From a bacterium ADurb.Bin243 (lineage in GTDB: Bacteria; Muiribacteriota; UBA9980): 64,000 nucleotides of DNA. Numbering within the stretch: the first letter of the stretch is position 1; each line of letters starts with the position of its first letter. The DNA is taken from NCBI GenBank assembly GCA_002069765.1, contig MWBZ01000003.1, forward strand, positions 62,001-126,000, in the 5' to 3' direction. This document shows positions 5,118 to 41,237 of the stretch, piece by piece. Position numbers and translations under genes: made by a program. The notes beneath the pieces are model-generated. The model was given only the letters and a program-made list of their open reading frames with translations, did no database searches and was not told the DNA's origin.

Positions 5118-5133
5118 AGAAAGCGTGGTGCGA

Positions 5134-6132
5134 ATGAGCGCTAAGGGAAAAGCATGGTTTATAGCCGCGTCTATTGCGGTATTCATAGCGACCGCGGCGG
5201 TTTCGTTCGTCGTCGGCAACTACAGCATAGAAAGCGGAAAGCTCGTTTCATACCTGACCGGCCGCGGCGCGCTGGACGAAAACGAACGCTACATTATATT
5301 CGAGGTGCGCCTGCCGCGAATCGTGATGGCCTCGCTAACCGGGGCCGCCCTTGCGGCGGGAGGCGTCTCGATGCAGGCTATTTTCCGGAATCCCCTGGTG
5401 AGCCCTTTCGTTATAGGACTTTCATCTGGAGCCGCTCTGGGCGCCGCCGTCGGCATAGTATATCTGAACGCCTCCGTGGCGGCGGTAGAGTCGCTTTCGT
5501 TTCTTTTCGGCACAGTCGCCGTTTTCGCGTCGTACCTGCTGTCCGGTTTCGGACGCGAAACGACGCTTTTGCTGCTCTTCGGTCTGGTGGCCACCTCCTT
5601 CTCCCACTCGGCGATAGGCCTGATGCAGTATTTCGCCGACCCTGAACATCAGCTTCCGGCGCTCACCTTCTGGATGCTCGGCGGCTTCGACGGCATAACG
5701 CTTTCATCGCTTAAATATTCGGTTCCGGTTATATTAGCCTGCATGGCCGTTCTTTACGCGTATTCTTATAAAATGAACCTGCTCACGCTCAGCGACGCGG
5801 AGGCCAGGTCGCTCGGCGTTAACGTGGCGGCCGCGAAATTCGTCATAATATTTTTCAGTACGCTCATGGTCTGCTCGTGTGTGTCGAAAGCGGGCGTCAT
5901 AGGCTGGATAGGCCTTACGGTTCCGCACATCTCGCGAATAATCCTGGGCCCCGACAACCGTCTCGTTTTCGTTTCGTCTTCTATCCTGGGAGCAGCGTTC
6001 CTGCTAGCGTCGGACGATCTGGCCCGAACGCTCACGCCCGGCGAAATTCCGGTCGGCATAATAACCTCCGCGATCGGCGCGCCGGTCTTTGCCGCCATAC
6101 TATTAAAGTACAGAAAATCCGGATGGAATTGA
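5134..6132 (+). CDS. FecCD/BtuC-type ABC importer permease (system 1)
   Basis: This is a highly hydrophobic protein with about ten membrane helices and the FecCD hallmarks: RLPRIVMASLTGAALAAGGV, the FRNPLVSPFVIGLSSGAALGA segment, the cytoplasmic coupling region with DAEARSLGVN, and the C-terminal GEIPVGIITSAIGAPVF. I favour the ATG at 5134, 10 bases after an AAAGAAAG stretch; an in-frame GTG at 5125 lacks a properly spaced ribosome site. It starts shortly after the binding-protein gene and is followed 11 bases later by its ATPase. Confidence 0.9.
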   Translation: MSAKGKAWFIAASIAVFIATAAVSFVVGNYSIESGKLVSYLTGRGALDENERYIIFEVRLPRIVMASLTGAALAAGGVSMQAIFRNPLVSPFVIGLSSGAALGAAVGIVYLNASVAAVESLSFLFGTVAVFASYLLSGFGRETTLLLLFGLVATSFSHSAIGLMQYFADPEHQLPALTFWMLGGFDGITLSSLKYSVPVILACMAVLYAYSYKMNLLTLSDAEARSLGVNVAAAKFVIIFFSTLMVCSCVSKAGVIGWIGLTVPHISRIILGPDNRLVFVSSSILGAAFLLASDDLARTLTPGEIPVGIITSAIGAPVFAAILLKYRKSGWN

Positions 6133-6143
6133 ACGGAGTTTTT

Positions 6144-6941
6144 ATGAACGCTAGAATTCAGATAGAAAATCTGTCGTTTAAATATCCTTCGCGGCCGGGA
6201 CGATCGCGCTCTTATATCTTCAGGGGCCTTTCGGCGGCCTTCGAAGCAGGTTCTTCCGTGGCGCTTCTCGGCCCGAACGGAGCCGGAAAATCGACTCTTT
6301 TAAACCTGCTCGCGGGGCATCTGAAGCCGTCGGAAGGGCGAGCGCTCATAGGAGGCACAGACATATCTAAAATGCCCGCAGACGAGGCGGCAAAACTCGT
6401 AAGCGTCGTCCCGCAGGAGCACCATCCGGCCTTCAATTTCACCGCGCGCGATATGATACTGATGGGCCGCGCGCCGCACAACGGCTTTTTCGGCATCGTA
6501 AGCGAAAGCGACCATGAGATCGTCGTGGAAGTTTCAAAAAAAACCGATCTGGAAGGGCTTCTCGACAACGAATACACGAAGCTTTCGGGCGGCGAACGAA
6601 AGCGCGTTATCCTCGCGCGGGCAATGGCGCAGCAAACGCCGGTCATGCTCTTCGACGAGCCGGAAGCGCATCTTGACATACGCCACCAGCACATGTTTTT
6701 TAAACTGATAAGCGGCCTGGCGCGCGATGAAAACAAGCTATGCATTTATTCGGTCCATAACCCGTCGCTCGCACTCAGATATTCGAGCGTCGTAATACTC
6801 ATGGACGCAGTCGGCGAAAATATAATCATCGGCCCGACGACGGAGGTTATGACGTGCCGGAATCTAGAAACCGCCTACAAAGTGAAATTCGGTATGGCCG
6901 AAGGCGGATCGATGGGAGCGCTGCTTTACGTAGAGACATGA
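6144..6941 (+). CDS. FecE/BtuD-type ABC importer ATPase (system 1)
   Basis: The 265-residue cytoplasmic ATPase has Walker A GPNGAGKST (43-51), Q-loop around VVPQE (89-92), signature LSGGE (147-151) and Walker B VMLFDEPEAHLD (167-178). The reading frame is open further upstream into the permease gene, but the ATG at 6144 with CGGAG at 6134-6138 gives the normal family start. It completes a receptor, binding protein, permease, ATPase set. The extra loop with PSRPGRSRSY after the first strand is slightly longer than usual. Confidence 0.92.
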   Translation: MNARIQIENLSFKYPSRPGRSRSYIFRGLSAAFEAGSSVALLGPNGAGKSTLLNLLAGHLKPSEGRALIGGTDISKMPADEAAKLVSVVPQEHHPAFNFTARDMILMGRAPHNGFFGIVSESDHEIVVEVSKKTDLEGLLDNEYTKLSGGERKRVILARAMAQQTPVMLFDEPEAHLDIRHQHMFFKLISGLARDENKLCIYSVHNPSLALRYSSVVILMDAVGENIIIGPTTEVMTCRNLETAYKVKFGMAEGGSMGALLYVET

Positions 6942-6998
6942 CGATATGAAAAAATCACGTCACAATAAATAAATTTTATTAAATAGATGGTGGTATAT

Positions 6999-7829
6999 AT
7001 GAATGAAACCGAATTCAAAATAAATCCTATAGGCGTCGTACATTCCGCGATCTCCGAAACTTCAAAAATGCCGAAGGACGGAATTTCTGAGGCAAAGATC
7101 GAAATATTCGAAAAATATCTTCCGGCAATGCACGGCCTCGAAAAATTCTCTCACATCTATCTCATGTGTTTTTTTCACAAGAGCGACAGGAGCCTTTTAC
7201 GGATCGATCCGCAAAAAGTCCACTTCAGGTACGCCAACTGCGAAGACGCCCCGCTCGGGGTGTTTTCAGGGAGGTCTCCGGCGCGCCCTAATCCTATCGC
7301 ACTGACCGTGGTTAAAATAAAAGCCATACAAGGGCGCGAGATCGAAGTCGAGCATTGCGACGCGGTCGACGGCACTCCGGTCGTGGACATAAAGCCTTAT
7401 AACGGCGGCATCGACCGTTTTATGAATCTTTCGATCCCCTCGAATGCGCCGAAAAAGCTCGATATGAAACTGAGATGGGTGGAAAGGATCATTACGAACG
7501 TGACCGGTTCAAGCGATGCCGCAGCGAAGATTATCGCGAAAATATTCGTGGACGCCTTTGACCGCGGTTACGTTTATACCGATAAAAATGTCTGGCTCGT
7601 CGTATCGAATATACCGCGGCTGATCGATTCCGCGTTATTTCTGGCCGACGCCACGTTTTCGAGCGGAAGACTTATGGTGATCGATGAAAAAGATTTTCAA
7701 ATAACCTTCATCAGGGGAAACGCGTCTTTAAAATACCGTCTTGCTGACGCGCGCGGCATAGATGGGATTATCGGCGGCAAAGAAGATAAAAATATCGAAG
7801 AGCTGTTCGAAGTGGTCGAAACGATCTAA
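6999..7829 (+). CDS. UPF0066/TrmO-like protein with an extra C-terminal domain (paralogue B)
   Basis: Residues 1 to about 150 are a UPF0066 domain with the family motifs FSGRSPARPNPIALT and VDGTPVVDIKPY. The remaining 120 residues (containing VLVVSNIP-like and LADARGIDGIIGG segments) are a separate domain I do not recognise. ATG 6999 is preferred over ATG 6987 because GGTGG lies at an ideal distance. It sits between the ATPase of importer 1 and an FmdE-like gene. TrmO family members are SAM-dependent methyltransferases; the real substrate here is unknown. Confidence 0.78.
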   Translation: MNETEFKINPIGVVHSAISETSKMPKDGISEAKIEIFEKYLPAMHGLEKFSHIYLMCFFHKSDRSLLRIDPQKVHFRYANCEDAPLGVFSGRSPARPNPIALTVVKIKAIQGREIEVEHCDAVDGTPVVDIKPYNGGIDRFMNLSIPSNAPKKLDMKLRWVERIITNVTGSSDAAAKIIAKIFVDAFDRGYVYTDKNVWLVVSNIPRLIDSALFLADATFSSGRLMVIDEKDFQITFIRGNASLKYRLADARGIDGIIGGKEDKNIEELFEVVETI

Positions 7830-7887
7830 GAACGACTCCAATAAAAGAATATAAGCGTTGTTAATAAAACTGCAAGGAGCTGAAATC

Positions 7888-8493
7888 ATGGGCGATATAA
7901 CAAAAAAGATCGAACTTTCTTACGACGAGTTTCTCGCGGAAGTCAAAAAAGCCAAAAAATTTCACGGCCATATCTGCGGAGGCATTTTCACTGGCATAAA
8001 GGTCGCCCTGGCCGCTAAAAAAATATTGAACATCAAAAAATATCCCGACCGCGATCTGATCGTAATAACCGAAATAGACCGATGCCTGACCGACGCGGTA
8101 ATGTCGGTCACCGGCTGCCGGCTCGGCCGCAAAACGCTGAAATTCAATGACTACGGCAAGTTCGGCGCCACGTTCTGCTCCCTCGCGGACGGCAGGGCCG
8201 TAAGAATCGCCGTGCGGCCGGACGCCATGGACAGGATCCAAAAAGAGATCGAAAAAAAGAATATCGACGAACACGATAAGGAAAGTTACGGCCTGGCGGT
8301 ATTCTGCCTCCCCGTAAAACAACACTTTATTATTACCAAAACAGAAGTGAATTTTTCCGAATACGATCTTCCCGGAAGGCCGAAGGTGATAAAACCCTGT
8401 TCGATGTGCGGAGAAAATATTTTCGACGGCAGGCATGAAACGAAAAACGGCCTGGCTTGCTGCCGGCCATGCCTGAACGGCCCGGGACGTTGA
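7888..8493 (+). CDS. FmdE-family protein with C-terminal zinc-ribbon cysteines
   Basis: The protein starts with an FmdE domain: FHGHICGG (residues 25-32) is the family's His/Cys motif, followed by a helix and the DRCLTDAVMSVTGCRLG segment. A C-terminal Cys cluster (C171, C174, C192, C195) forms a likely zinc ribbon. FmdE was named from the formylmethanofuran dehydrogenase locus, but its biochemical role is unsettled. ATG 7888 is preceded by AAGGAG at 7874-7879. The gene links the two ABC importers, so a role in handling the imported metal or cofactor is plausible but inferred. Confidence 0.85.
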   Translation: MGDITKKIELSYDEFLAEVKKAKKFHGHICGGIFTGIKVALAAKKILNIKKYPDRDLIVITEIDRCLTDAVMSVTGCRLGRKTLKFNDYGKFGATFCSLADGRAVRIAVRPDAMDRIQKEIEKKNIDEHDKESYGLAVFCLPVKQHFIITKTEVNFSEYDLPGRPKVIKPCSMCGENIFDGRHETKNGLACCRPCLNGPGR

Positions 8494-8543
8494 ACAATTA
8501 ACCGTTTGCCTTACCAAAACTTATATATGCAAGGAGACTAAAA

Positions 8544-9512
8544 ATGAAAATAAAGGGATTGATTTCAAAAATTACGGTGCTCTCGTGCCTGGCAATTTTT
8601 ATTCTTTGCGGCGTAACCGCAGCGGCGGAAGGTCCTTCGAAAATAATCGCGCTCGACCCGATGGTCAGCCAGTGGCTGCTCGCGCTCAAATGCGAAAGCG
8701 GCGCGAAAGATATCCTCATAACTGAGGTCGGCAAAAGCGATTACATGAAGGACGTTTTCCTGGAGCTCAAAGACCGAGTGATGCGTAAAAAGATAGATAA
8801 CGTCGAAGAGCTGATGGCGCTCGATCCTGAAATAGTGTTCGTTAAAAATGGAACGGACCTCGATCTTTCGAAATTAAAAAAAGGCGGCCTGAAGTTATCC
8901 TGTCTCGACTTCGAGAAAATCGACGATATTTTAAAGAGCGTAACCGCTATGGGCAGCGCTCTCAAACTCGAAAAGCGGGCCGAAACCCTTGCGGCATATT
9001 TCAAAACTTCAGTCGAACAAATCCGCAAAAGCATTGAAAAATCAGCGGGCAAAAGCTCAAAACCTAAGGTTTACTTCGCTAACGGCAACATTTACAGTTC
9101 CGTCGCGAAGGGCATGTACCAGAATTTCCTGATCGAATCGGCCGGCGGCGTGAGCGTGACCGCAAATTCAGCCGGCGTTAAGATACAGGTTTCGGCCGAA
9201 GAACTGATAAAATGGGACCCTGATATCATAATCACGGCGTCTTTCTGCTCTGACACGCCGGAATCGATAATGCAAAACGAAAAATTAAAAGACATCGCGG
9301 CGGTAAAAAATAAAAAGATATTCGTAATACCGCGCCTGGTGACATCATGGGACATGCCGGTGCCCGAATCTCTGCCCGGGATCGAATGGCTTTCGGCTAA
9401 ACTGCATCCCGAACTCGCAACCGGCCTGAACCAGCGAATAAAGAATTTTTACAAAACCTTCTATAACCTGAATGTCGAAGACGCGCAGATAGAAAAATCG
9501 ATCAACCGTTAA
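8544..9512 (+). CDS. ABC importer periplasmic binding protein (system 2)
   Basis: A signal peptide (about 1-29, ending AAA) leads a class III periplasmic binding fold: KIIALDPMVSQWLLALKC in the first lobe, an ELIKWDPDIIITAS strand in the second lobe, and a KNKKIFVIP strand toward the end. The sequence is clearly diverged from the first binding protein, so the two importers may take different ligands, or the same ligand at different affinities. The ATG follows AAGGAG at about 8531. The ATPase gene begins 24 bases downstream. Confidence 0.85.
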   Translation: MKIKGLISKITVLSCLAIFILCGVTAAAEGPSKIIALDPMVSQWLLALKCESGAKDILITEVGKSDYMKDVFLELKDRVMRKKIDNVEELMALDPEIVFVKNGTDLDLSKLKKGGLKLSCLDFEKIDDILKSVTAMGSALKLEKRAETLAAYFKTSVEQIRKSIEKSAGKSSKPKVYFANGNIYSSVAKGMYQNFLIESAGGVSVTANSAGVKIQVSAEELIKWDPDIIITASFCSDTPESIMQNEKLKDIAAVKNKKIFVIPRLVTSWDMPVPESLPGIEWLSAKLHPELATGLNQRIKNFYKTFYNLNVEDAQIEKSINR

Positions 9513-9536
9513 CCGGAGCGTTTAAAGGCGGAATTT

Positions 9537-10319
9537 ATGCATAATAAAATCATGGAAGCGGAAGATATATCGTTTTCTTACGGCGGCAGGCACGTTCTGA
9601 AAAACATCAGCCTGAATATCCATGCGGGTGAAGTGCTTTCAATTTTAGGCCCCAACGGTGCCGGAAAAACGACTCTGCTGAACTGTCTTTTGAACTTCGT
9701 AAAACCGGTGGGAGGCAGAATAAAGTTAAAAGGAAAACCGGCGGAAGAATATAAACGGCGTGATTTCTGCCGCATAGTTTCGTTCGTGCCGCAAATGCAC
9801 AGGCCCGTTTTCGACTATACCGTCGAAGAGATCGTGTTGATGGGCAAAAATCCCCATCTCGAAGGCTGCGCGGCGCCTTCGAAAAAAGACCGCGCCGAAG
9901 CGCTGGCCGCTCTCGCAGAACTGAACATCGAGCATCTCAGGGACGCGCGCTACACTAAGATAAGCGGCGGCGAGCTCAGGCTTGCGCTTATAGCCAGGGC
10001 GATTGTCCAGGCGACGGAAATGATATTTCTCGACGAGCCGGCGGCCCATCTCGACCTGAAAAATCAGATCGACATAATGGGCGTTATCAGAGATCTCGCG
10101 GCCGTGAGGAAGATGGCGGCGGTAATGGTCGTGCACGACCCGGACCACGCGCTCGCTTATTCGGACCGCGCATTGCTTTTGAAGGACGGCCGGAGCGTAG
10201 CGGCCGGAGCGCCTTCTGAAACCATAACGAGTGAAAACCTGATGTCTGTTTACGGCGTCGACGCCGCCATCATCGAGTTCGAAGGCCGCAAAAAAGTCAT
10301 GATACGAAATAAAATATGA
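9537..10319 (+). CDS. FecE/BtuD-type ABC importer ATPase (system 2)
   Basis: Walker A GPNGAGKTT (38-46), Q-loop FVPQMH, signature ISGGE (142-146) and Walker B MIFLDEPAAHLD are all intact, as expected for an ABC importer ATPase of 260 residues. An AGGCGGA lies just before the ATG. The stop overlaps the permease start as ATGA, so translation of the two is coupled. Gene order is binding protein, ATPase, permease here, but binding protein, permease, ATPase in system 1, which argues against a simple recent tandem duplication. Confidence 0.92.
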   Translation: MHNKIMEAEDISFSYGGRHVLKNISLNIHAGEVLSILGPNGAGKTTLLNCLLNFVKPVGGRIKLKGKPAEEYKRRDFCRIVSFVPQMHRPVFDYTVEEIVLMGKNPHLEGCAAPSKKDRAEALAALAELNIEHLRDARYTKISGGELRLALIARAIVQATEMIFLDEPAAHLDLKNQIDIMGVIRDLAAVRKMAAVMVVHDPDHALAYSDRALLLKDGRSVAAGAPSETITSENLMSVYGVDAAIIEFEGRKKVMIRNKI

Positions 10320-11317
10320 AAAAAACTGTTTTGATATTATCGCTCGCGCTCGCGGCGCTCTGCGTCATCTCCATTTCGATAGGCAGGTATCAGATACCTC
10401 CGGCGACGGTAATTAAAATAATTGCCGCGAAATTCGCCGCGTGTGAGCGCGACTGGCCGGAGCGCATGGAAACGGTTATCTGGTCTATAAGGTTTCCGCG
10501 GGTAATAGCCGCCATGGCCGTGGGAGCGGGGCTTTCCATGTCCGCGGCGGTGCTGCAGTCGATGTTTCAAAATCCTCTCGTTTCGCCGTTCATACTCGGC
10601 GTTTCATCCGGCGCCGGATTCGGGGCGGCCGTCGCCATCCTCCTTGAAATGAACAGGCTCGCCCTATATCTAATGGTTTTCGCGGGCGGCGCGGTCGCGG
10701 TAACTCTGAGCTGCCTTCTGGGAAAAGAAAACGGCCGCGGCAACTCTAAAATAACGCTGGTTTTAAGCGGCGTCATCGTAGGCGGCTTTTTCTCATCCCT
10801 CATTTCTGCGTTGAAATATATGGCGGACCCTTACACGAAACTGCCGGAGATAGTCTTCTGGCTGATGGGCTCGTTGGCGTACGTCACGGGCGAAAACCTC
10901 CTGTGGATATCGCCGATCATCATATTTCCAATGGCAGCGCTTTACTTTTACAGCTGGAAGTTCAACATCCTGGCGCTCGGCGAATACGAGGCAAAGTCCC
11001 TTGGAGAAGACACGGAACGCCTGAAAATGATCGGGATCGTTTTTACGACCATGCTCGTATCGGCGACGGTGGCTTTATCGGGCGTCATCGGCTGGGTGGG
11101 CCTGGTCGTGGCTAATTCGGCGAGAATGGTCACCGGCCCGAACCTCGTAAGGCTTGTGCCCGTTTCGGCGCTGGCGGGGGCCATATACCTTCTTTTGATA
11201 GACGACATGGCGCGCAGCCTCGCGAGCGTAGAAATACCGCTCGGCATACTGACCTCGCTTGCGGGAGCGCCGGTTTTTATATACATACTCAAAAAAAGCG
11301 GCGGCGATAAACAATAG
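10316..11317 (+). CDS. FecCD/BtuC-type ABC importer permease (system 2)
   Basis: About ten membrane helices with FecCD signatures: IRFPRVIAAMAVGAGLSMSAAVLQSMFQ-like start of the core, then NPLVSPFILGVSSGAGFGA, the coupling segment ALGEYEAKSLGED, and the C-terminal VEIPLGILTSLAGAPVF. The start codon overlaps the upstream ATPase stop (ATGA). This is the last structural gene of the uptake operon before a separately promoted regulator gene. Confidence 0.9.
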   Translation: MKKTVLILSLALAALCVISISIGRYQIPPATVIKIIAAKFAACERDWPERMETVIWSIRFPRVIAAMAVGAGLSMSAAVLQSMFQNPLVSPFILGVSSGAGFGAAVAILLEMNRLALYLMVFAGGAVAVTLSCLLGKENGRGNSKITLVLSGVIVGGFFSSLISALKYMADPYTKLPEIVFWLMGSLAYVTGENLLWISPIIIFPMAALYFYSWKFNILALGEYEAKSLGEDTERLKMIGIVFTTMLVSATVALSGVIGWVGLVVANSARMVTGPNLVRLVPVSALAGAIYLLLIDDMARSLASVEIPLGILTSLAGAPVFIYILKKSGGDKQ

Positions 11318-30653: not shown

Positions 30654-31481
30654 GTGAGTAAAGTAAAAGAAAGCGGCTCAAAGTTTTCGAAGATCGATTT
30701 TTTTCTAAAAGAACTTCAAACCGAGGCGAAAAATTCGGCAAAAGGATCGTTTTTAGTTAACGCATGTGTCGGGGTTTATATGACGTGCGTAGAAAACTCT
30801 CTCGGCGAAATGGGAGTAAGTTATACATGGCGCGACGAAAATCTCGTTCCGCACTTATGCCGGGGGATCAGGGACGCCGGAAGCCTCCACGGGAAACCGA
30901 TGGAAGAAATAATTGATTTAATAAATTCCCCCTCTTCGCTGGAACGCTCACTGGCCATGGCAGGCATTAATTCTTTATTGAACTCGAACCTGTCAATGAA
31001 GGCGCAGTCAGGCGATATGCTTATGTACCTTCGCGAAAATTTTAAAGGCAAGAAAATAGCCATGGTAGGTCATTTTCCATTTGCCGAAGAAATAAGGAAA
31101 TGGGCCGGCGAATTTCACGTTATCGAAAGAAATCCAGTCGGCGACGACGTTTTATTTAAAGGCGCCGGCCAAAAATATTTGAACGAAGCGGACGCAACTA
31201 TAATTACAGGCACGACCATACTCAATAAAAGTTTTATCGAGGTAATAAGCGAATGTAAAAATTCATTCAACGTAATGCTCGGGCCGACCGTTCCTCCATC
31301 GGCGGTTCTTTTTAATTACGGCGTAAGCGCTATAGTGGCCATCAAAACAATCGATAACGCCCGGCTTTATTCTTCGATTGCAGAAGGAGCCATAGTGCCT
31401 CGTTTCAAAGGAAGCGAAATGGTCACTTACTGCCGCGAAAAGCTCGAGCTGCCGAAAGGCGATTTTAGAACAAGAATTTGA
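30654..31481 (+). CDS. DUF4213/DUF364-type putative metal-chelation protein (2)
   Basis: GTG 30654 has ACGGAGGT just upstream. The architecture matches the preceding gene: an N-terminal domain (VYMTCVENSLGEMGVSYTW), then DUF364 (KKIAMVGHFPFAEEIRKW, ATIITGTTILNKSFIEVI, MLGPTVPPSAVLF). Sequence identity to its neighbour is low, so the duplication is old or the two have different ligands. They probably act together or on related metals. Confidence 0.8.
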   Translation: MSKVKESGSKFSKIDFFLKELQTEAKNSAKGSFLVNACVGVYMTCVENSLGEMGVSYTWRDENLVPHLCRGIRDAGSLHGKPMEEIIDLINSPSSLERSLAMAGINSLLNSNLSMKAQSGDMLMYLRENFKGKKIAMVGHFPFAEEIRKWAGEFHVIERNPVGDDVLFKGAGQKYLNEADATIITGTTILNKSFIEVISECKNSFNVMLGPTVPPSAVLFNYGVSAIVAIKTIDNARLYSSIAEGAIVPRFKGSEMVTYCREKLELPKGDFRTRI

Positions 31482-31638
31482 ATATGTCGCTGAAAGTTTT
31501 AATTTAAAAATAGAATCTTGGAAAAGTGATCGTCGGCCAGACGCTTGAATTATAAAATAAAAAATTAACCTCAAAAAATATTATGCCGCATTAATATCCA
31601 AAATGCAGCTATTAAAAGAAAGGTACGGTAAAAAAGAT

Positions 31639-32037
31639 ATGGAAATACATAAAGAAAACACGGAACAGTTCGCCGGGATCGAGTATGGCGATAAAAATTT
31701 CGACATCGAAAAATATTTCGGCCAGATGAACGATCCTACATGCTCGTCTTATATCAAGGGTCCTTGCGGCGATTTTATGGAATTTTATCTCGCAGTAGAT
31801 TCGCGTGGAAGAATAGAGGATATTTCATACTACACCGAAGGATGCGGCGCCACCAGAACATGCGCTGCTGCGGTATGTATAATGGCTTTGAATAAAACTA
31901 TAATCGATGCGCTTTCCATATCCGCGGGAGAAGTAATATCAAAGATAAAAGGGCTGCCGGAAGACCATAAGCATTGCGCAATATTATCGGTAAGCACTCT
32001 CTACCGAGCAATAGCCGATTACCTGCTTCTTCCATAA
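31639..32037 (+). CDS. IscU/NifU N-terminal-type scaffold-like protein
   Basis: The protein has IscU-fold motifs: NDPTCSSYIKGPCGDFMEFYLAVD, the YYTEGCGATRTCAAAVCIMA segment corresponding to the second conserved Cys, and the C-terminal ...HKHCAILSVSTLYRAI with the third. Ligand Cys are retained, so it could carry Fe-S clusters or another metal. The frame is open to an ATG at 31603, but ATG 31639 gives the usual family N-terminus; neither start has a strong ribosome site. Confidence 0.75.
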   Translation: MEIHKENTEQFAGIEYGDKNFDIEKYFGQMNDPTCSSYIKGPCGDFMEFYLAVDSRGRIEDISYYTEGCGATRTCAAAVCIMALNKTIIDALSISAGEVISKIKGLPEDHKHCAILSVSTLYRAIADYLLLP

Positions 32038-32058
32038 AATTTCATTTAAGGATGGGTA

Positions 32059-32862
32059 ATGAATAAAAAAGTGACCGACGACCTCGGAAGGGTCATATAT
32101 TTGAATAAACCTCCCCGGCGGATCGTTTCTCTGTGCCCTTCGCTCACGGAAACGTTGTTCGCTCTCGGCCTCGACGAACTTGTCATAGGACGCACCGATT
32201 ACTGCGTGCACCCTGAGGAAAAAATCGATAGAGTGCAAAGCGTGGGAGGCCCAAAAAGCGTTTCACTGCCCGCGGTCGAATCTCTGATGCCGGATCTCGT
32301 ATTGGCCGTCAAGGAAGAAAACAATAAAAAAACGCTCGAATCGCTATCGTCGCTACATTATAAATGCTTTATATTCGATATTAATTGCGTGGACGGCGCT
32401 CTTAAAATGATCGAAAAACTCGGTGAAATATTCGAAATTAAAGAACGGGCCGCGGCTATGCGCGCCTCGATAAAAAACGGTTTCGAACTTGTCGGACGCG
32501 CGCAGGGAAACCCGTCTTTTCTTTATATGACCTGGAGCTCGCCATATATCGCCGCAGGCACCGGAAATTATATAAATTCCCTTCTGTCCGGATTCGGCTT
32601 TAATAATTGCCTGTCAGGAAGTTTCAGGCGCTACGTCAGAATGGATCTGAACGCTCTAAAGCTGCTCAAAGCCGACATAATATTTCTGCCGTCCGAACCT
32701 TATAACTATACTATCACCGATAAAATTAAATTCGAAAAATTCTTTCCCGAAGCGAGAGTAATTCTTGTTGACGGCGAAATGTTCTGCTGGTACGGCTCAA
32801 GAATGGAAATAGCCGGAAAATACCTTAAAGATCTTTTCAAAAAATTCGGACTAATAAATTAA
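32059..32862 (+). CDS. BtuF-like helical-backbone metal receptor without signal peptide
   Basis: The 267-residue protein has the class III periplasmic-binding fold: RRIVSLCPSLTETLFALGL, GRTDYCVHP, MPDLVLAVKEENN and RMDLNALKLLKADIIFLPS, as in cobalamin-binding BtuF. It lacks a signal peptide and starts directly with MNKKVTDDLGR, so it is cytoplasmic or secreted by another route. No permease or ATPase gene is adjacent. It closes a set with DUF364-type and IscU-like genes, pointing to intracellular metal-complex handling. Confidence 0.82.
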   Translation: MNKKVTDDLGRVIYLNKPPRRIVSLCPSLTETLFALGLDELVIGRTDYCVHPEEKIDRVQSVGGPKSVSLPAVESLMPDLVLAVKEENNKKTLESLSSLHYKCFIFDINCVDGALKMIEKLGEIFEIKERAAAMRASIKNGFELVGRAQGNPSFLYMTWSSPYIAAGTGNYINSLLSGFGFNNCLSGSFRRYVRMDLNALKLLKADIIFLPSEPYNYTITDKIKFEKFFPEARVILVDGEMFCWYGSRMEIAGKYLKDLFKKFGLIN

Positions 32863-32918: not shown

Positions 32919-34301
32919 CTAAAGCCGCGCGGAGCGCTTCAGAGAAATGACCGTTCCGGTTAAAGCGGCGGCGGTAAATATCATATAGCACGCCCTGATT
33001 ACGGACAGCATCTGCGGATATTTTTCGGGCGGAATGCCCTTTGTTTCGCCGAATACCATAAGAAAAGCCGCGCCGCATATTATAATGCTGCACTGCATCC
33101 CGAGATTTCTCATTATAGAGTTCGAGGCCGAAGCCATTCCGCGGCGGTCGGCCGGAACGCTTTCCATTATAATGCTGGTGTTCGGCGTTGAAAAGAAAGA
33201 TACGCCGACGCCGGCAAGCGCGAGAGACGCGTATATGAGCGCGTAAGAAGTCGATTCCGACAAAAAAACAAAAGCCGCAAGGGAAATCGAGGTAATCGCC
33301 ATTCCCGAAGAAGCGATAAAAGCGGGATGGAACCTTGAACAAAAAGCGCCCGCCAGAGGGGCGAAGATTATTTGAACCAGCGGCGTGATAAGCGTTATCT
33401 TTCCCGCCTGAAGCGGCGTAAGGCCGCGGTTGCACTGAAGGTATAGCGATATAAGATACTGCGAGCCGTAGGTGGATATGAAATTCAAAAAGACCGACAA
33501 CACGGCCATGGCGAAAACCTTATTTCCTGTAAAAAGACGCATGTCATAAATCGGCCGCGGGGCGTCGAACTGGCGCCTGATAAAAAATACGAACGAAGAC
33601 GCGCTGGCCGCAAGAAGCGCCGCGCCCCAAACATTATTTATCTGATTAGCGCCCGATTGAAGGCAGATAAGCGTAAGGGCATAATAAAATATCCCTTTAT
33701 AATCTATTTTTTTATCGGTTTTTTCTTTAATTGCAGTCCTTTCGCCGGGAACGAACGCCTGAATAATCGCCATAGCGAGCGCGCACCCGGCGCCGGAAAC
33801 TATGAATATGCTCTTCCATCCGAAAGACTGAGTCAGATATCCGCCGATGAAATTGCCTGTTGCGAATCCCAGGTAAATAAGCGACGAAAGGAACCCCAGA
33901 GAGACGCTGCGGTATTTTTTTTCGATAACGTTGGTTATTATCGGAATGTTTGAAACCACCAGAAAAGCCGAACCTATTCCCTGAAGGCCCCGCATGGCGA
34001 CCAGCGAGCTGAAACTATTGACTACCAGCGGCACGAGAAAATTAGACGCGGTAAAAAAAGCGCACCCGAAAACGAGAGTGCGTTTAGGCCCGTACGCGTC
34101 GGAAAGATTGCCGAAAGGCACTATAAACAGGCTTGAAAACAGCAGAAAAACCGAAGTGACAAGGCTCAGGTCCGCCGGATTTACCGCATATTCGGCTGCA
34201 ATGCTCTTCAGCGCCAGATTGACTGACGAAGATAGAAAAGAAGATAAAAACGAGGTCAGCCCCGTCGCCAGAACGATTATGAGTATACGCGCCCGGCTCA
34301 T
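32919..34301 (-). CDS. MFS (DHA2-like) transporter, probable exporter
   Basis: The 460-residue protein has 12-14 membrane helices with MFS motifs (GNLSDAYGPKRTLVFG between helices 2 and 3, MRGLQGIGSAFLV, and the later GVGVSFFSTPNTSIIM). DHA2-type proteins export drugs, siderophores and other small molecules by proton antiport. Its start overlaps the stop of the RsbW/GNAT fusion gene by four bases (ATGA-type), so it likely exports the product of the operon. Confidence 0.88.
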   Translation of the reverse strand: MSRARILIIVLATGLTSFLSSFLSSSVNLALKSIAAEYAVNPADLSLVTSVFLLFSSLFIVPFGNLSDAYGPKRTLVFGCAFFTASNFLVPLVVNSFSSLVAMRGLQGIGSAFLVVSNIPIITNVIEKKYRSVSLGFLSSLIYLGFATGNFIGGYLTQSFGWKSIFIVSGAGCALAMAIIQAFVPGERTAIKEKTDKKIDYKGIFYYALTLICLQSGANQINNVWGAALLAASASSFVFFIRRQFDAPRPIYDMRLFTGNKVFAMAVLSVFLNFISTYGSQYLISLYLQCNRGLTPLQAGKITLITPLVQIIFAPLAGAFCSRFHPAFIASSGMAITSISLAAFVFLSESTSYALIYASLALAGVGVSFFSTPNTSIIMESVPADRRGMASASNSIMRNLGMQCSIIICGAAFLMVFGETKGIPPEKYPQMLSVIRACYMIFTAAALTGTVISLKRSARL

Positions 34302-35803
34302 CGCGGCTCACCTTTTTCAAAAACGCGCGGCGCCTCGCGCATTATAAAATCCATGATACGTTTCGCGGAATCGGTGTAAAGGATCATTTTAGACGTATCG
34401 ACCGTTTCTCCGTTGAGGTATTGCATATGAAGCGCGTCGCGCCCGCCTTTAAGGCAGCCGGGCATTACGCCCGAATAAAAAAAACCGAGGCCGGAAGCGA
34501 ATTCGGCTATTAGCGGCGCGTCAGGATTTTCGAGATCTACGGCCAGGACTATAGAAGCCATCTTCTGCTCGAGCGCGAGCTCAAAATAAGCCTGCAGCTT
34601 GCCCTGCGAGTTGGGGCCGCCGTAAACTTCCATTGAAGAACGCCGCCATACGAAATCATTTTTACACGATACGCCTTGCAAAACGGAGCCGGCCGGCTCT
34701 TCATCCGGCGAGCCCTGCCTGACATCAAGGCCGATATCGCCGTAGGCCGATAATACGATATCCCTGTAGCGGCCTGGTATGTATATGGTCTTCAGGGGCC
34801 GGCGCGAAAGCTGCCTGTAATTTACCACGCTGGTAACCCTCTCGCCGGGCTTCGCGCCTTCTACGAACACGGCCGGGGCTGAAGCCAGCCTGATGCCGGT
34901 AGTTTTTCTGCCCGTGCGTTCGCTGTGCCTTTGAGTGCTTGCATGGCTCGTTACGGAAAGCGAAAAAACGCCGTCAAGGCCGAGTCCTTCAAAATTTTCG
35001 TGCATGGCGTCGCACAGCTGCATGAAAATATTGTGTTTTCTAAATTCCGGCCTTACGAACGCCGCGCCGAGCTCGCCGATCCGCTCCTGAGGAGCGTTTT
35101 TAACGAGCGCGTAATGGCCTATCACTTTTCCGGCTTCGTCTATAGCTATCATCGAAAGCATTTTGCCGCTGAGGTTATCTTCGAGCAGCTGGGCTGGATA
35201 ATAAACCACGTCTTTATAGGCGTACTTGTAAACGTCGTAGGCGCATATAGAAACCGCCAGGGCTTCTTTTTCGGTTTTAAGCGGCCTTATGGACAACGCG
35301 CCGGCAAGTTCGGCCGCGCTTTCGGGCCGGGCCGCGCCCTTAGGGCCGCGTTCACGCACGGCCGCTGACGCTGGAAGCATTTTACGCATAGTAAGCTGCA
35401 TACCGGTTTTTTCGATATAGCGCCACTGGACCGAATCGAGCTTTTTAAACATTAAAAACGATCCAAGGCCGCTGGAAGCGCTTTCGGCTTCCTCCGCCGC
35501 GGCCGCCCCCGGATCGTACTGCGGAAGCGAGCCGTGATCGAACGGCCTGCACGGAGAAAGCATGGTTATAGTTATGGAAGAATTGTCGAACTCTATTGAA
35601 ATGTCGATGGGCTGGCACGCAGCGTCGGTTGCGGCAGCCGCTTCCACAAGGTACATGACGCCCTCTTCGATAGCCAGCTCCATGTCGAGCTTTTCACGCG
35701 CCGGAACAGCCAGATCACCGCATAAAGAATCGAAAAAGCGCTGCACCGCGCGAAAGCTTATGGCGTCGTGCTCCACTTTCAGATTCGCTTTATATAAAGG
35801 CAT
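34298..35803 (-). CDS. Fusion: degenerate RsbW-like ATPase domain + GNAT-type acyltransferase
   Basis: Residues 1-135 resemble an RsbW-type HATPase_c domain (LAIEEGVMYLVEAA, PFD, SSGLGSFLMFKKLD), but the Asn of the N-box is Tyr and the D-x-G motif is changed to S-P-C, so ATP use is doubtful. Residues about 170-330 resemble a GNAT N-acyltransferase (MIAIDEAGKVIGHYALV, AAFVRPEFRKHNIFMQL), also lacking a clear acyl-CoA GxG. The last 150 residues are unassigned. It lies between the racemase/ligase fusion and the exporter and may modify the substrate or act as a regulator. Confidence 0.75.
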   Translation of the reverse strand: MPLYKANLKVEHDAISFRAVQRFFDSLCGDLAVPAREKLDMELAIEEGVMYLVEAAAATDAACQPIDISIEFDNSSITITMLSPCRPFDHGSLPQYDPGAAAAEEAESASSGLGSFLMFKKLDSVQWRYIEKTGMQLTMRKMLPASAAVRERGPKGAARPESAAELAGALSIRPLKTEKEALAVSICAYDVYKYAYKDVVYYPAQLLEDNLSGKMLSMIAIDEAGKVIGHYALVKNAPQERIGELGAAFVRPEFRKHNIFMQLCDAMHENFEGLGLDGVFSLSVTSHASTQRHSERTGRKTTGIRLASAPAVFVEGAKPGERVTSVVNYRQLSRRPLKTIYIPGRYRDIVLSAYGDIGLDVRQGSPDEEPAGSVLQGVSCKNDFVWRRSSMEVYGGPNSQGKLQAYFELALEQKMASIVLAVDLENPDAPLIAEFASGLGFFYSGVMPGCLKGGRDALHMQYLNGETVDTSKMILYTDSAKRIMDFIMREAPRVFEKGEPR

Positions 35804-35845: not shown

Positions 35846-38509
35846 TCATGCGATCCATCTTATTTTAAAACTGACCGGCGTCATTATCTCTTCGCGCCTG
35901 ACCAGTTTTACGGCCGGGACCGCCGCGGAGCGGTCGCTCGCGAGAACTTTAGCGTAAATGCCGCCCTGAATTTCACCGAGCTTGTCGGCGATCAGTTCCG
36001 CCGCCTTAGTGAGATCGATATCTTCCGCGCCGGCTTTCGGCACGAGAGCGAGGGCCAGGCGAGGATCGCCGTTTTCGGTTTCGTATCTGCTCATTTGAAA
36101 TTCGCCGCTCAGCCGGTCGTTAAGGTAAGGCACCCTTTCTATAACGGCTTTGATCACGCCGACGGACAGTTTGCTGCCCATGAACGTAAGGCCGTCTTTG
36201 CGGCCGCTCACTATCACGAAAGGTTTTTTATCCGCGCCGGCAGGATCGTAGCCGCGCTCCGACATCAATTTAAACGGGTCCAGGCCGTTTTCTTTGACGA
36301 GCGCCATCATCTTATCGTAATCCATCACGAACCCGGCGTCGTTAGAGCGGTATCTTATGAGCGGGATTATCCCCGGCCGCGTCATTACGAGCTCACCGTC
36401 AACCTCTTCGATAAATATATCTGAAGGCGAATATTGGCATATAGTAGGCATAGTTTCATAGCCGAGTATTTTTTTCAGCAGGCCGTTTTCGTGAAGCAGC
36501 CGCTTTATGGCGATGCAAAGCGGCGTTTCTTTTCCCACGCTGCGAAAATCCGTAGCGCCGTAGCCCGAGCTTATCGAGGTGAGGAAGCCGTAAGGATATC
36601 CGAGCAGTTCGTTAACCCTGTCGCGGAAAGATTCGGAATAACCTTCGCCTATAAGGCGCAGCTTTATATTATATTTTTTAATGTCAACGCCTTCGGTCGC
36701 GAGCCTTTCGAGAATATTTTTAGCCGTCGGGCCATATGAAAATAAAATAGTCTGCCTGTAATATTTTGAAAATTCGGCAATAGCCTCCATGCATTCTTTT
36801 TCTTCACGGCCCGGAGTTATGAGCGTGATCGTTCCCGTCTCGATTCCTATTGCGCGAAGCACATAGGCGAAAAGGGCGCCGCTGAGATTGCCGCCCATTA
36901 AAAGGCCGAGCACCACGAGCGTGGGCGTGGAGGAAATTTTATAGTTCCTGTCGAGTTCTTCGAAAGTGCGCTTCCAATAGCCAATTTCGGTCTCGCGCGA
37001 GCACGGCCAGTAAACGTGCTTTCCAGAAGTCCCGGAGCTGTGGGCTATAAAATGCGCCCTGTCGAGCGCTCCGCCGGAGCACCTTTCGGTTATAGCGTAC
37101 GCGTTTATATACGAAGGCTTGTCCATAAAAGGCAGTTTCTTGAAATCTTCCGGGCTTTTTACCGAAGGCAGCCCGCCGCATGCCGTTTCAATAAATTTCT
37201 TATACGCCGGCGTTTTTTCGACGGCCTGATTGTAAAACTCGACGGGGTCCACTTCTTTAGCGGCTGCAGCGGGGCTGGAAGCGCCTATTTTAAGGTTGGT
37301 AAGCCCCCAGCCGGCGCCGGTGGGTACTTTGAGCGTTCCTTCGTGATACTCGGGCGAATCGGCTATATTTTCAACGAAATAAGGCGCCTGGGAAACATGG
37401 TCGCCGGGAAGGTCGATTTCTTCGCGCGCGCTGAAATGAACGTTAGCGGTCTTGCCCATGGCGGATTCGTGCATTCCGCCGCACCAGGCCGACACTTTAT
37501 TTATACTGCACAATCTGGCTATTTTGATAGCCTCCAGATAACCGCCCACACGAGGCGGCTTAATATTTATTATTAGCTTCGAAACGTCCGAATATTGCTT
37601 CCACAGCTCGATCGCCTGCCTCGCGTGAGCCGCGCTCAAAATGCTTTCATCCATGCAGATCGGCGTTTTAAGCCCCGCCAGGGTTCTGGCGTGATCGTAT
37701 ATGTCGTCGTTCGGCCCCGGCTGTTCGATCATCATGAGATCGAATTCGTCCAGCCGTTTAAGCAGCCCTATATGCTCGGGATTAAATAAATCGTATGCGG
37801 CGTTAGCGTCCACCTGAAGCCTTATGCGCGGATAACGGGCCCTTATAGCGGCCACATATTCGATATCTTTTCCGGGCTTGATCTTCACCTTTATACGGGC
37901 CGCTTTCATACGTTCGACCGCCGTTTCGATTTTTTTCATAAGAGCATCTATGGTAGGCTCCAGGCCGACGCTCGTTCCGGCTTCCACCGTTTTTTTAACG
38001 CAGCCCCACAACTCGGAAACGGAAACGCCGCGCATCTTTGCCAGAGCGTCCCAGTATGCGCCTTCGACTCCCGCGCGCGCCATATTATGCCCGACCACCC
38101 ATTTGTAAAGCTTTATAAAAGAGCATACGTCCGTAACGGGAGTGTTCTTCGCGGCGGCTTCGTCGAGAGATGATATTATATATCCCAGAGCCGTTTCTAC
38201 GCTTTTATGGCATTCGTAGTCGTACCAGGGCGCCGAAAGCGGCGAGCACTCGCCAATGCCGCAAATAACGCTCCCGTCGGCCCTGCGGAAAGTGATTTCC
38301 GGATATAGCCTCACCAGCGAGTCGAAGCGGCCGAAAGAAGTTTCAAAAGGTATGCAAAGCTTCATTTCACGTTTGTAGACCGTAACTTTATGAATAAAAA
38401 GCGGCTCGGTATTTTCAAAAACGCCTAGCTCTTTCAAACCCAGATTTTTCTCGTTGATTTCACCTGCGCCAATGCAGTTTCCGGCGTTATTTTTTAGATC
38501 GGAAGCCAT
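35846..38509 (-). CDS. Fusion: NSAR/OSBS-type enolase-superfamily enzyme + PaaK/MenE-type adenylating enzyme
   Basis: Residues about 40-415 are a muconate-lactonising-subgroup enolase with all catalytic residues: K209-x-K211, metal ligands D234, E262, D287 and K317, and the AWCGGMHESA loop typical of o-succinylbenzoate synthase/N-succinylamino-acid racemase. Residues about 420-887 are an acyl/aryl-CoA ligase-like adenylating domain with HSSGTSGK (490-497), SSGYGATDF, RYRSNDAG and SGRKDG motifs, nearest to PaaK. MenC and MenE do consecutive menaquinone steps, so a fused MenC-MenE-like enzyme is one reading; an amino-acid-derived product is another. AAGGAG precedes the ATG. Confidence 0.85.
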   Translation of the reverse strand: MASDLKNNAGNCIGAGEINEKNLGLKELGVFENTEPLFIHKVTVYKREMKLCIPFETSFGRFDSLVRLYPEITFRRADGSVICGIGECSPLSAPWYDYECHKSVETALGYIISSLDEAAAKNTPVTDVCSFIKLYKWVVGHNMARAGVEGAYWDALAKMRGVSVSELWGCVKKTVEAGTSVGLEPTIDALMKKIETAVERMKAARIKVKIKPGKDIEYVAAIRARYPRIRLQVDANAAYDLFNPEHIGLLKRLDEFDLMMIEQPGPNDDIYDHARTLAGLKTPICMDESILSAAHARQAIELWKQYSDVSKLIINIKPPRVGGYLEAIKIARLCSINKVSAWCGGMHESAMGKTANVHFSAREEIDLPGDHVSQAPYFVENIADSPEYHEGTLKVPTGAGWGLTNLKIGASSPAAAAKEVDPVEFYNQAVEKTPAYKKFIETACGGLPSVKSPEDFKKLPFMDKPSYINAYAITERCSGGALDRAHFIAHSSGTSGKHVYWPCSRETEIGYWKRTFEELDRNYKISSTPTLVVLGLLMGGNLSGALFAYVLRAIGIETGTITLITPGREEKECMEAIAEFSKYYRQTILFSYGPTAKNILERLATEGVDIKKYNIKLRLIGEGYSESFRDRVNELLGYPYGFLTSISSGYGATDFRSVGKETPLCIAIKRLLHENGLLKKILGYETMPTICQYSPSDIFIEEVDGELVMTRPGIIPLIRYRSNDAGFVMDYDKMMALVKENGLDPFKLMSERGYDPAGADKKPFVIVSGRKDGLTFMGSKLSVGVIKAVIERVPYLNDRLSGEFQMSRYETENGDPRLALALVPKAGAEDIDLTKAAELIADKLGEIQGGIYAKVLASDRSAAVPAVKLVRREEIMTPVSFKIRWIA

Positions 38510-38539: not shown

Positions 38540-39379
38540 TCAAGCGAAAAGCAGAAGGCTGCCGGACATTACAACCATTCCGGAAATAAGCCCGTATATG
38601 GCTATATGATGCTCGCCGTATTTTTCGGCTGTCGGAAGAAGTTCGTCGAGCGATATGTAAACCATTATGCCCGCCACGGCAGCAAAAACATATCCGAACA
38701 TAGCCTGATTGAAAAAATTCAAAAGCAGGAAATATCCGATAATAGCTCCCAGCGGCTCTGAAAGGCCCGACATGAAAGAATATAAAAAAGCCTTGCGGCG
38801 GCTCTTTGTGGCGTAATATATGGGAACGGAAACCGCTATCCCTTCGGGAATGTTATGTATCGCTATAGCCACGGCGATGCTTATACCTATGCCCGGCTCC
38901 TGCAGGCCACCTATAAAGGTGGCCAGGCCTTCGGGAAAGTTGTGGATCGCTATGGCAAGGGCTGAAAACATACCCATTCTCAAAAGGTTTTTGCTCTTCG
39001 CTTCTTCTCTGGCGATTTTTAACTGGTCTTCGCTGCACTCGGCGCACATGTCGTCCATAAACTCGGTTTCATGAGGGTTTTCGTAAGAAGGAACCAGCTT
39101 GTCTATAAGCGTTATAATAGCCATTCCGGCAAAAAACGAAAGCACCGTGAGCGAATAGCCCGTTTTTGCGCCATAAGCGGCTGTGAGCGAAACTTTCGCC
39201 TTGGCGAAAATCTCAACGAACGATACGTATATCATGACCCCGGCGGAAAAACCCAGCGACCCCGAAAGGAAGCGCGGGTCGAATTTCTTCGCGAAAAAAG
39301 CTATGGCGCTGCCGATTCCGGTTGAAAGGCCTGCAAAAATAGTTAGTGCTAAAGCGAATAAAACATTTTCAGTATTCAT
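38540..39379 (-). CDS. zupT: ZIP-family metal transporter (ZupT type)
   Basis: The 279-residue protein has eight membrane helices and the ZIP signatures HNFPEGLATFIGG (metal site in helix 4) and HNIPEGIAVSVPI (helix 5), each with His and Glu for divalent-metal transport. The hydrophilic loop (about 95-130, with EFMDDMCAECSEDQ) is typical of ZupT. It imports Zn, Mn or Fe. Placed 30 bases upstream of the racemase/ligase fusion and 16 bases after the peptidase in one operon. Confidence 0.93.
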   Translation of the reverse strand: MNTENVLFALALTIFAGLSTGIGSAIAFFAKKFDPRFLSGSLGFSAGVMIYVSFVEIFAKAKVSLTAAYGAKTGYSLTVLSFFAGMAIITLIDKLVPSYENPHETEFMDDMCAECSEDQLKIAREEAKSKNLLRMGMFSALAIAIHNFPEGLATFIGGLQEPGIGISIAVAIAIHNIPEGIAVSVPIYYATKSRRKAFLYSFMSGLSEPLGAIIGYFLLLNFFNQAMFGYVFAAVAGIMVYISLDELLPTAEKYGEHHIAIYGLISGMVVMSGSLLLFA

Positions 39380-39395: not shown

Positions 39396-41237
39396 CTATT
39401 TAACTTTAAGCGGCAGGTAAGGGTCGCCTAAAAGGTTGAGTTCGAAAAATACCCAGCGCGTGGTGCCGTGGCCCATAAATTTGACGTTGGCCTCTTTGGA
39501 AGATTGGTTCGCGTCGCCGAGGCGGTTTTTACCGAGAGCGAACAAAGCGTTGGTGAACTGGCGATGGAAATACTGCGACGCGCCGCGGCATGAAACTGAA
39601 GCGTCCGGATCGGGATCTTCGGGCCCGAGCCCGTATGAAGAGTTTCCTATAACGGCGTAAGCGCCGGCGGGCGAAGTCACATGCGCGGAAAGTATGCAGT
39701 TTCTATCCGTAAAGCGGCCGCAGTAGCAGCCCTGCGTATAAAGAAGGTAATAACGGCCGTTCGCCAGCTTGCTCAGGCTGCTCGAATAAAGGCGCATATT
39801 GCTCGTAACGCTGGAATGGCCTATATGGTTGAGTATATAAATCCCGCCGTTAATAGCGTTGATTATATCCGTTGACGACCATCTTTTATCCTGATCGAAA
39901 AGATAGGCGCGCGGATAATCCGCCGGATATCCGGCAGTGGTGAAACCGTGGACCGAAGCGCCGTTTTCGATTTCTTTCATATATGTTTTGCCCCAGATTC
40001 CGGGGAAGAGATTTTCGCCGCAGAAAAACGCTTTTCCGGCTTCGCCTTCATAATAGCCATAGGCGGCCATGTTTTTCTTTAAAAAGTTAGCGAGCGCGGC
40101 TGCGGTATCGGCCGGAACCCTTCCTACGGATATTTCTGAAAACATGTCTATATCTCCGCCGTTAAGGCCGTCGGAGGGATCGCCGTATATTCCGTCTTTA
40201 TTTTCATCGAAAGTGCCGTCGAGATTGCAGTAGTACACGTCGCCCGGAAGCAGCTGGTCGAAATTATCTTTTTCCCACTTAAAAGCCGCGTGAAGTTTTC
40301 TGACCGGAATTACGGGATTGGCGTCCATGGAGCCGCCCGCCAGCAGAACGTATTTGACGCCGCTTTCGTTATAGCGCTTTCTGAGGTAGTTTCTTAATTT
40401 ATCGGCGCCGTCGCGGCCTTCAGATGACGAGAGTATATCTTCTATGAGAGCGGTTTCGGTTTTAAGGCCTTTTTCATTCAAGAATTTAGAAAATTTCTGC
40501 AAATTGTATTCTTCGGCGGAAGCCGCGAGCGCCTTCGAGGTTACGATAAGATAATCGACCGAAGCTTTTTTAGATATTTTTACGGCTTTATAACCGGTAA
40601 TATCGAAAGGATTATCCACCAACGACCTAACGTATTCTCTGTCGCTTTCGATATCGCGCACCACGGCGGTCATGGAACTTTTTTTAGCCGGCTTAAGCCC
40701 GTATGAAAGCACCGCGCGGGTGTAGTAATAAACTTTCCCGGTTTCGGCCTGATACATAACGGGATTGATGTTCAAAACGAGAATTTTATAGCCGCGAGCG
40801 CTCTGGATTGACATATTCGTCATTACGCCGGCCGGATAGTTTCCGGAGTATTTGTACTCAAACGCAGGCGCTTTGCCGCCGTTCATCAAAGCGTCGGTTT
40901 TTCTTTTTTCGGCTGCCTGTTTTTCGAAGGAAAGCGGAATGTTATAAGCTACGGGCCTTAATAAGTATTCGCCTTTGATTTCAGTTAAGTTTAAAGGAGT
41001 CACTTTGACATTTACGGCTTCGAACCCCTGCGGCAGAAGTATGGACACCGGCTTGAAAGGGACCGCCGGCATGGCGGGTTCTATGGTAAGCGGAAGGCCG
41101 TCTAACGATATATCGTAGTAAACTCCGGATTTAACCAGTTTTGGAGCGTTGAAATCATAGACTACCTCTTCGGCAAAAGCCGCACCGGTGAAAATAAACA
41201 TCAAAATAAACGCGACGAATAAAACCGTTTTTTTCAT
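39396..41237 (-). CDS. Secreted gingipain-type (C25) cysteine peptidase
   Basis: After a signal peptide (residues 1-22, ending AFA) and an N-terminal propeptide-like beta domain (about 25-180), the caspase-like C25 fold runs from about residue 225, with GGSMDANPVIPVR and DIDMFSEISVGRVPAD, the catalytic His474 in NHIGHSS and Cys504 in TQGCYCGRF. No C-terminal sorting domain is visible. The protein would cleave peptides outside the cell or in the periplasm. AAGGGG precedes the ATG. It heads the minus-strand operon with ZupT and the racemase/ligase fusion. Confidence 0.87.
   Translation of the reverse strand: MKKTVLFVAFILMFIFTGAAFAEEVVYDFNAPKLVKSGVYYDISLDGLPLTIEPAMPAVPFKPVSILLPQGFEAVNVKVTPLNLTEIKGEYLLRPVAYNIPLSFEKQAAEKRKTDALMNGGKAPAFEYKYSGNYPAGVMTNMSIQSARGYKILVLNINPVMYQAETGKVYYYTRAVLSYGLKPAKKSSMTAVVRDIESDREYVRSLVDNPFDITGYKAVKISKKASVDYLIVTSKALAASAEEYNLQKFSKFLNEKGLKTETALIEDILSSSEGRDGADKLRNYLRKRYNESGVKYVLLAGGSMDANPVIPVRKLHAAFKWEKDNFDQLLPGDVYYCNLDGTFDENKDGIYGDPSDGLNGGDIDMFSEISVGRVPADTAAALANFLKKNMAAYGYYEGEAGKAFFCGENLFPGIWGKTYMKEIENGASVHGFTTAGYPADYPRAYLFDQDKRWSSTDIINAINGGIYILNHIGHSSVTSNMRLYSSSLSKLANGRYYLLYTQGCYCGRFTDRNCILSAHVTSPAGAYAVIGNSSYGLGPEDPDPDASVSCRGASQYFHRQFTNALFALGKNRLGDANQSSKEANVKFMGHGTTRWVFFELNLLGDPYLPLKVK

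Follow-up and report, generated by a model that had tools for sequence, protein, structure and literature searches.

Gene content of the locus

The window analysed here, a 64,000-nucleotide stretch from the bacterium ADurb.Bin243 (contig MWBZ01000003.1), carries on its minus strand a gene of 887 codons (35846..38509) whose product joins an OSBS/NSAR-type enolase (residues ~36-407) to a divergent PaaK-type adenylating enzyme (residues ~425-887). The gene stands third in a series of five, all on the minus strand and separated by 16, 30, 42 and -4 bp. It is preceded by a C25 (gingipain-type) peptidase (39396..41237) and a ZIP metal transporter (38540..39379) that matches the ZupT equivalog model with 383 bits (cut-off 252). 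It is followed by a 501-residue protein combining an RsbW-type HATPase with a GNAT-like sequence (HATPase-GNAT, 34298..35803) and by a 460-residue MFS transporter (32919..34301), DHA2/EmrB-like though under the curated cut-off, whose gene overlaps that of the HATPase-GNAT by 4 bp. Promoter-like sites occur at chance level and terminator-like sites slightly above it, and Rfam has nothing within the 64 kb. At 4026-11317 and 30654-32862 the window also contains metal-chelate uptake sets resembling periplasmic binding proteins, permeases and ATPases, together with DUF364/DUF4213 heavy-metal-chelation genes. PADLOC gave no match for the five operon proteins, and a role in anti-phage defence was rejected on that ground. 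By their spacing the ZIP and C25 genes belong to the transcription unit of the fusion; nothing links either of them to its chemistry, and the metal-binding product suggested in an earlier note on this DNA has nothing in its favour except the adjacent ZupT gene.

Integrity of the fusion gene

The open reading frame has no internal stops, and a second genome of the same genus encodes the fusion in frame, again with 887 residues and with 95% identity at the protein level; record JAKPTH010000341.1, which also encodes an 887-residue fusion, is probably this second genome. The two genes differ by 190 synonymous and 48 non-synonymous changes without a single indel over 2664 bp, corresponding to a dS of 0.41. 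The ratio dN/dS is 0.034 for the enolase half and 0.051 for the adenylating half, and is looser in the first 34 residues (0.42) and the short linker (0.30), two values drawn from few sites. Purifying selection is acting on both halves. The possibility that sequencing error, frameshift or misassembly merged two adjacent genes, or that the gene is decaying, is thus refuted and barely credible, since such events would not yield an identical layout in two assemblies with this degree of divergence and constraint. The intact frame and its in-frame counterpart bear out the fusion of two enzymes that had been read from the single sequence.

The enolase half

The N-terminal half (residues 36-407; 37289..38404, minus strand) is recognised by the Pfam models MR_MLE_N and MR_MLE_C, both over their cut-offs, and passes the curated menC model TIGR01928 with 220.1 bits (cut-off 200.65). 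Its AlphaFold2 model (pLDDT mostly 80-97) has the capping domain and barrel fold of the NSAR/OSBS family, and the top Foldseek matches are 1wuf, 1wue and NSARs, with TM-scores by target of 0.86-0.91. Alignment to 1sja, 1wuf and 1wue places the catalytic set at K207, K209, D234, E262, D287 and K317, and all six residues are invariant across 36 aligned sequences. The earlier note was right about the last four positions, while the lysines it numbered K209/K211 are K207/K209 when aligned with K163/K165 of the Amycolatopsis NSAR. The equivalent of R266 in the latter enzyme is also present (R320), yet OSBS-type relatives have the same residue, and it was dropped as proof of racemase activity.

When 84,980 species were scanned, each represented by one genome, 80 loci homologous to the enolase half were returned, a number that is not exhaustive because relatives were found by short peptide patterns. 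Apart from the fusion locus, the other 79 encode standalone proteins of 366-432 aa, except for one truncated at 220 aa. A GNAT gene lies no more than 300 bp upstream in 54 of these 79 nearest relatives and an M20-amidohydrolase-like ORF occurs at 37 loci, which is the arrangement of the NSAR pathway. Sakai 2006, a study of NSAR and of the conversion of D- to L-amino acids, is cited in PMC8762209 as describing a GNAT-related enzyme by which D-amino acids are succinylated. NSARs accept many N-acyl groups (PMC7431475). The GNATs upstream of the NSAR-type relatives gave no significant BLASTP match to the operon's HATPase-GNAT, and the fusion operon contains no M20 amidohydrolase gene. Among the close relatives are Listeria and Enterococcus proteins annotated as MenC, and an E. 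faecalis homologue adjoins menH. Because TIGR01928 is passed, the Listeria and Enterococcus structures are the best matches and R320 is common to both activities, sequence alone cannot tell a racemase from an OSBS; racemase-type rather than dehydratase chemistry is nevertheless favoured for the predicted enzyme. The fused domain sits on a long branch and deviates at 21 columns whose conservation in its standalone relatives is 90% or higher, so that its substrate may be new.

The adenylating half

The C-terminal half (residues 425-887; 35849..37237, minus strand) has no Pfam match, even at an E-value of 1. A profile built from four members of its family nevertheless retrieves the PaaK structures 4r1l (9e-16) and 2y4o (2e-15), and the P-loop, A5, A7 and A8 motifs and the C-terminal catalytic lysine of the PaaK-like branch of the ANL superfamily are all present: HSSGTSGK (490-497), SGYGATD (648-654), RYRSND (from 719), SGRKDG (768-773) and Lys 882, which lines up with the GK of ordinary PaaK-like proteins. 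Catalytic motifs are accordingly retained in both halves of the fusion, as the first inspection had suggested. The curated PaaK model TIGR02155 stays far below its cut-off (13.3 bits against 646). The predicted structure is of low confidence because the alignment held two sequences for this half. An operon of a different lineage (L179 type, see below) contains a PaaK protein of the same subfamily, and a further locus (L111:5357-9369, minus strand) carries a tandem array of three PaaK-like genes, with a member of this Pfam-invisible subfamily in the middle. Both the subfamily and the fusion architecture are absent from the libraries searched.

The family assignments made at the outset hold for the OSBS/NSAR enolase and the PaaK-type partner. 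A MenE identity is not supported: the MenE model TIGR01923 is absent among the matches of the C-terminal half, which are confined to weak PaaK/F390-synthetase hits. This bears on the idea that the protein unites MenC and MenE, the enolase half making o-succinylbenzoate and the other half converting it to the CoA thioester on the way to menaquinone or a derived compound. MenC and MenE do catalyse consecutive steps and the TIGR01928 cut-off is passed, but the C-terminal half is PaaK-like. A search for MenB (TIGR01929) found no match in the window's genome, which is 96% complete, or in three congeners, against 11 of 14 control genomes that match; instead MqnC (TIGR03699) is over its cut-off in the window's genome and adjoins a second member of its family. 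With MenB unmatched and MqnC present, quinone is probably made via the futalosine route. The MenC-MenE reading is largely refuted and highly improbable, and the MenB and MqnC searches lend no support to the menaquinone-related product that had been proposed.

Distribution of the fusion

Among 382 genomes searched with a profile of the C-terminal half and 96 searched with the whole protein, the fusion occurs in two only, both of the same genus. Far from being widespread with an assigned function, the architecture is limited to this one genus among the genomes searched; the two-domain search found no homologue outside it, and the earlier note's impression of an unfamiliar combination stands. Two congeners lack the fusion, one of them 76% and the other 96% complete. 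The more complete one shares part of the region and keeps the C25 protease (79% identical), but ZIP, fusion, HATPase-GNAT and MFS genes are not beside it. The block has therefore been gained or lost within the genus, and the protease is not an obligate partner of the other four genes. As to spread by plasmids or phages, no record covers 80% of the fusion, the only match to the C-terminal half being a Nonomuraea record, and the viral contigs searched hold no relatives of that half.

HATPase-GNAT neighbourhoods

The "GNAT-like fusion" of the earlier note does contain a GNAT-like sequence, and its other part can now be specified as an RsbW-type HATPase (HATPase_c_2, 35.5 bits against a cut-off of 27.4). 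In the window's copy the N-box Asn of most relatives is replaced (EEGVMYLVEAA) and the GNAT cofactor motif is degenerate. The family, of about 500 aa, has up to four copies per genome, and four in the window's; its members include the window's gene at 34298-35803 and genes at L134, L135, L136, L137, L139, L140, L142, L144, L179 and L197-L206. A survey of 24 near-full-length loci, which form approximately 18 ortholog groups, placed an ANL-type adenylating enzyme about three genes away or closer in 6 of the 18 groups and an MFS gene nearby in 8 of the 18, while about half of the groups have neither. Excluding the window's own group, the counts are 5/17 for adenylating enzymes (P ~1e-4) and 7/17 for MFS genes (P ~1e-6) by a rough binomial estimate; these P values are guides and not exact, because the groups were made by eye and the background, a rough 3%, was drawn from one genome.

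The adenylating enzymes in question are diverse. At L134 and L137 the HATPase-GNAT gene is located beside a FadD-like ligase accompanied by ThiF, carboxyltransferase and M20 genes, at L136 and L138 beside an AMP-binding/ACP/acyltransferase protein, and at L203 with LuxE and a LuxC-PaaK fusion. In another lineage (L179, L205, L206) the cluster comprises HATPase-GNAT, MFS, PaaK, PaaK, LuxE and LuxC-PaaK. At L201 the neighbour is a RimK-GH3 fusion (L201:6004-8562, minus strand), a RimK ATP-grasp domain with a complete GH3 acyl-amido synthetase encoded between the HATPase-GNAT and MFS genes. Two groups (L140, L144) combine HATPase-GNAT and MFS without a visible ligase. Further multi-domain proteins were noted: LuxC acyl-CoA reductase-PaaK fusions (ORFs of ~840-985 aa, e.g. 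L215:7831-10530, minus strand) are found in most genomes of the phylum, the window's included, with LuxE upstream where examined; L134:13176-17393 (minus strand) encodes a 1405-aa protein with a phosphoglycerate kinase domain fused behind a PPDK_N/PEP-utiliser protein; and contig C7 of the window's genome has an NRPS-like ORF (5194 aa) in which there are four or more adenylation domains, other multi-domain ORFs being located on C8 and C19.

It is conceivable, though rather doubtful, that little-studied lineages contain an unrecognised class of small clusters for biosynthesis and export, marked by HATPase-GNAT proteins and each built around a different adenylating enzyme (NSAR-PaaK, LuxC-PaaK, RimK-GH3, or FadD with an E1-like protein). 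The GNAT would be an amide-forming or ligase-regulating partner, and the NSAR-PaaK version would set stereochemistry. The literature searched yielded nothing relevant on fusions of the HATPase-GNAT or MenC-MenE type or on LuxC/LuxE/PaaK clusters.

A candidate acyl-amide pathway

The best explanation, to which we assign a probability of roughly 0.4, is that the fusion is a bifunctional enzyme, combining N-acylamino-acid racemase with acyl-adenylating activity, within a small operon for the biosynthesis and export of an acyl amide. The divergent PaaK-type half would adenylate a carboxylate; the HATPase-GNAT would act as the acyltransferase or regulate the acyl-transfer step; the proton-abstracting NSAR/OSBS-family half would most likely epimerise the N-acylated amino acid and hence set the amino-acid centre of the product; and the MFS protein would export the small acylated (amide) metabolite. 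Racemase over dehydratase activity, the substrates, the order of adenylation, acyl transfer, epimerisation and export, and the part played by the GNAT are what we infer. This bifunctional reading is favoured by the intact set of six residues, the NSAR/OSBS fold, the GNAT/M20 context of the relatives, selection, and the recurring neighbourhoods of HATPase-GNAT, adenylating enzyme and MFS, with which the biosynthesis and export operon proposed in the earlier note is in keeping. It is weakened by the TIGR01928 match, the 21 changed columns, the degenerate GNAT motif, the missing M20 gene and the roughly half of HATPase-GNAT groups that have no such partner.

The main rival, unlikely in our estimate, casts the HATPase-GNAT as a regulator and not as an enzyme of the pathway. 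Tuned by its RsbW-like domain, it would acetylate the adenylating half at the catalytic lysine, in the way that AcuA and Pat modify AMP-forming CoA ligases, while the fusion would make another acyl-CoA. AMP-forming ligases, the B. subtilis MenE among them, are acetylated on their active-site lysine by GNATs such as AcuA (PMC11619455), Lys 882 is retained in the fusion, and the HATPase-GNAT family occurs beside several unrelated adenylating subclasses, most of which have that lysine. However, the family is associated with MFS genes no less strongly than with adenylating enzymes, the L140 and L144 groups pair it with an MFS gene where a ligase is not visible, and the window's copy has a degenerate GNAT cofactor motif.

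A catabolic role is quite improbable. In such a scheme the MFS protein would import an aromatic or cyclic acid, which the enolase half would dehydrate or lactonise and the PaaK half would convert to a CoA thioester. Relatives of PaaK do activate aromatic acids in degradative pathways, and muconate cycloisomerase models match the N-terminal half, but far more weakly than the NSAR/OSBS models do. Moreover, ring-cleavage and beta-oxidation genes are absent from the operon, and DHA2/EmrB-like MFS proteins are usually exporters.

The fusion matters beyond the single gene, as reactions that are consecutive or channelled often come to light through enzyme fusions, and this one offers a direct way to the substrate of a PaaK subfamily invisible to Pfam. 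Automatic annotation would label the gene menC, though its genome has no MenB match. The neighbourhood of HATPase-GNAT, adenylating enzyme and MFS can in turn serve as a search rule for similar clusters.

Comparison with known systems

Both halves belong to known superfamilies, and the novelty lies in the architecture and in the PaaK subfamily; no description of a racemase or dehydratase fused to an acid-activating enzyme was found in the literature searched. In structure comparison the enolase domain is 34-35% identical to the NSAR/OSBS enolases (Amycolatopsis NSAR 1sja, Listeria lin2664 1wuf and E. faecalis 1wue), with which it shares the catalytic residues, the R266 equivalent and the predicted fold. 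Whereas all 79 other relatives examined stand alone, this domain is joined to a ligase and has diverged at the 21 columns along its long branch. The C-terminal half has the P-loop, A5, A7 and A8-type motifs and the C-terminal lysine of the PaaK phenylacetate-CoA ligases 4r1l and 2y4o (profile E ~1e-15), but unlike them it carries an additional segment between motifs A7 and A8 and has no AMP-binding Pfam match. The operon resembles the NSAR operons with a GNAT succinyltransferase and an M20 amidohydrolase (the pathway of Sakai 2006, cited in PMC8762209) in placing an NSAR-type enzyme beside a GNAT-type protein; here, however, a ligase is joined to the enzyme, the GNAT is fused to a HATPase and belongs to a different family, and there is no M20 gene. 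The LuxC-PaaK proteins with LuxE (L179, L203, L205, L206) likewise place a PaaK-type enzyme behind another enzyme within HATPase-GNAT/MFS clusters, the partner being an acyl-CoA reductase in their case and an enolase in the fusion of the window.
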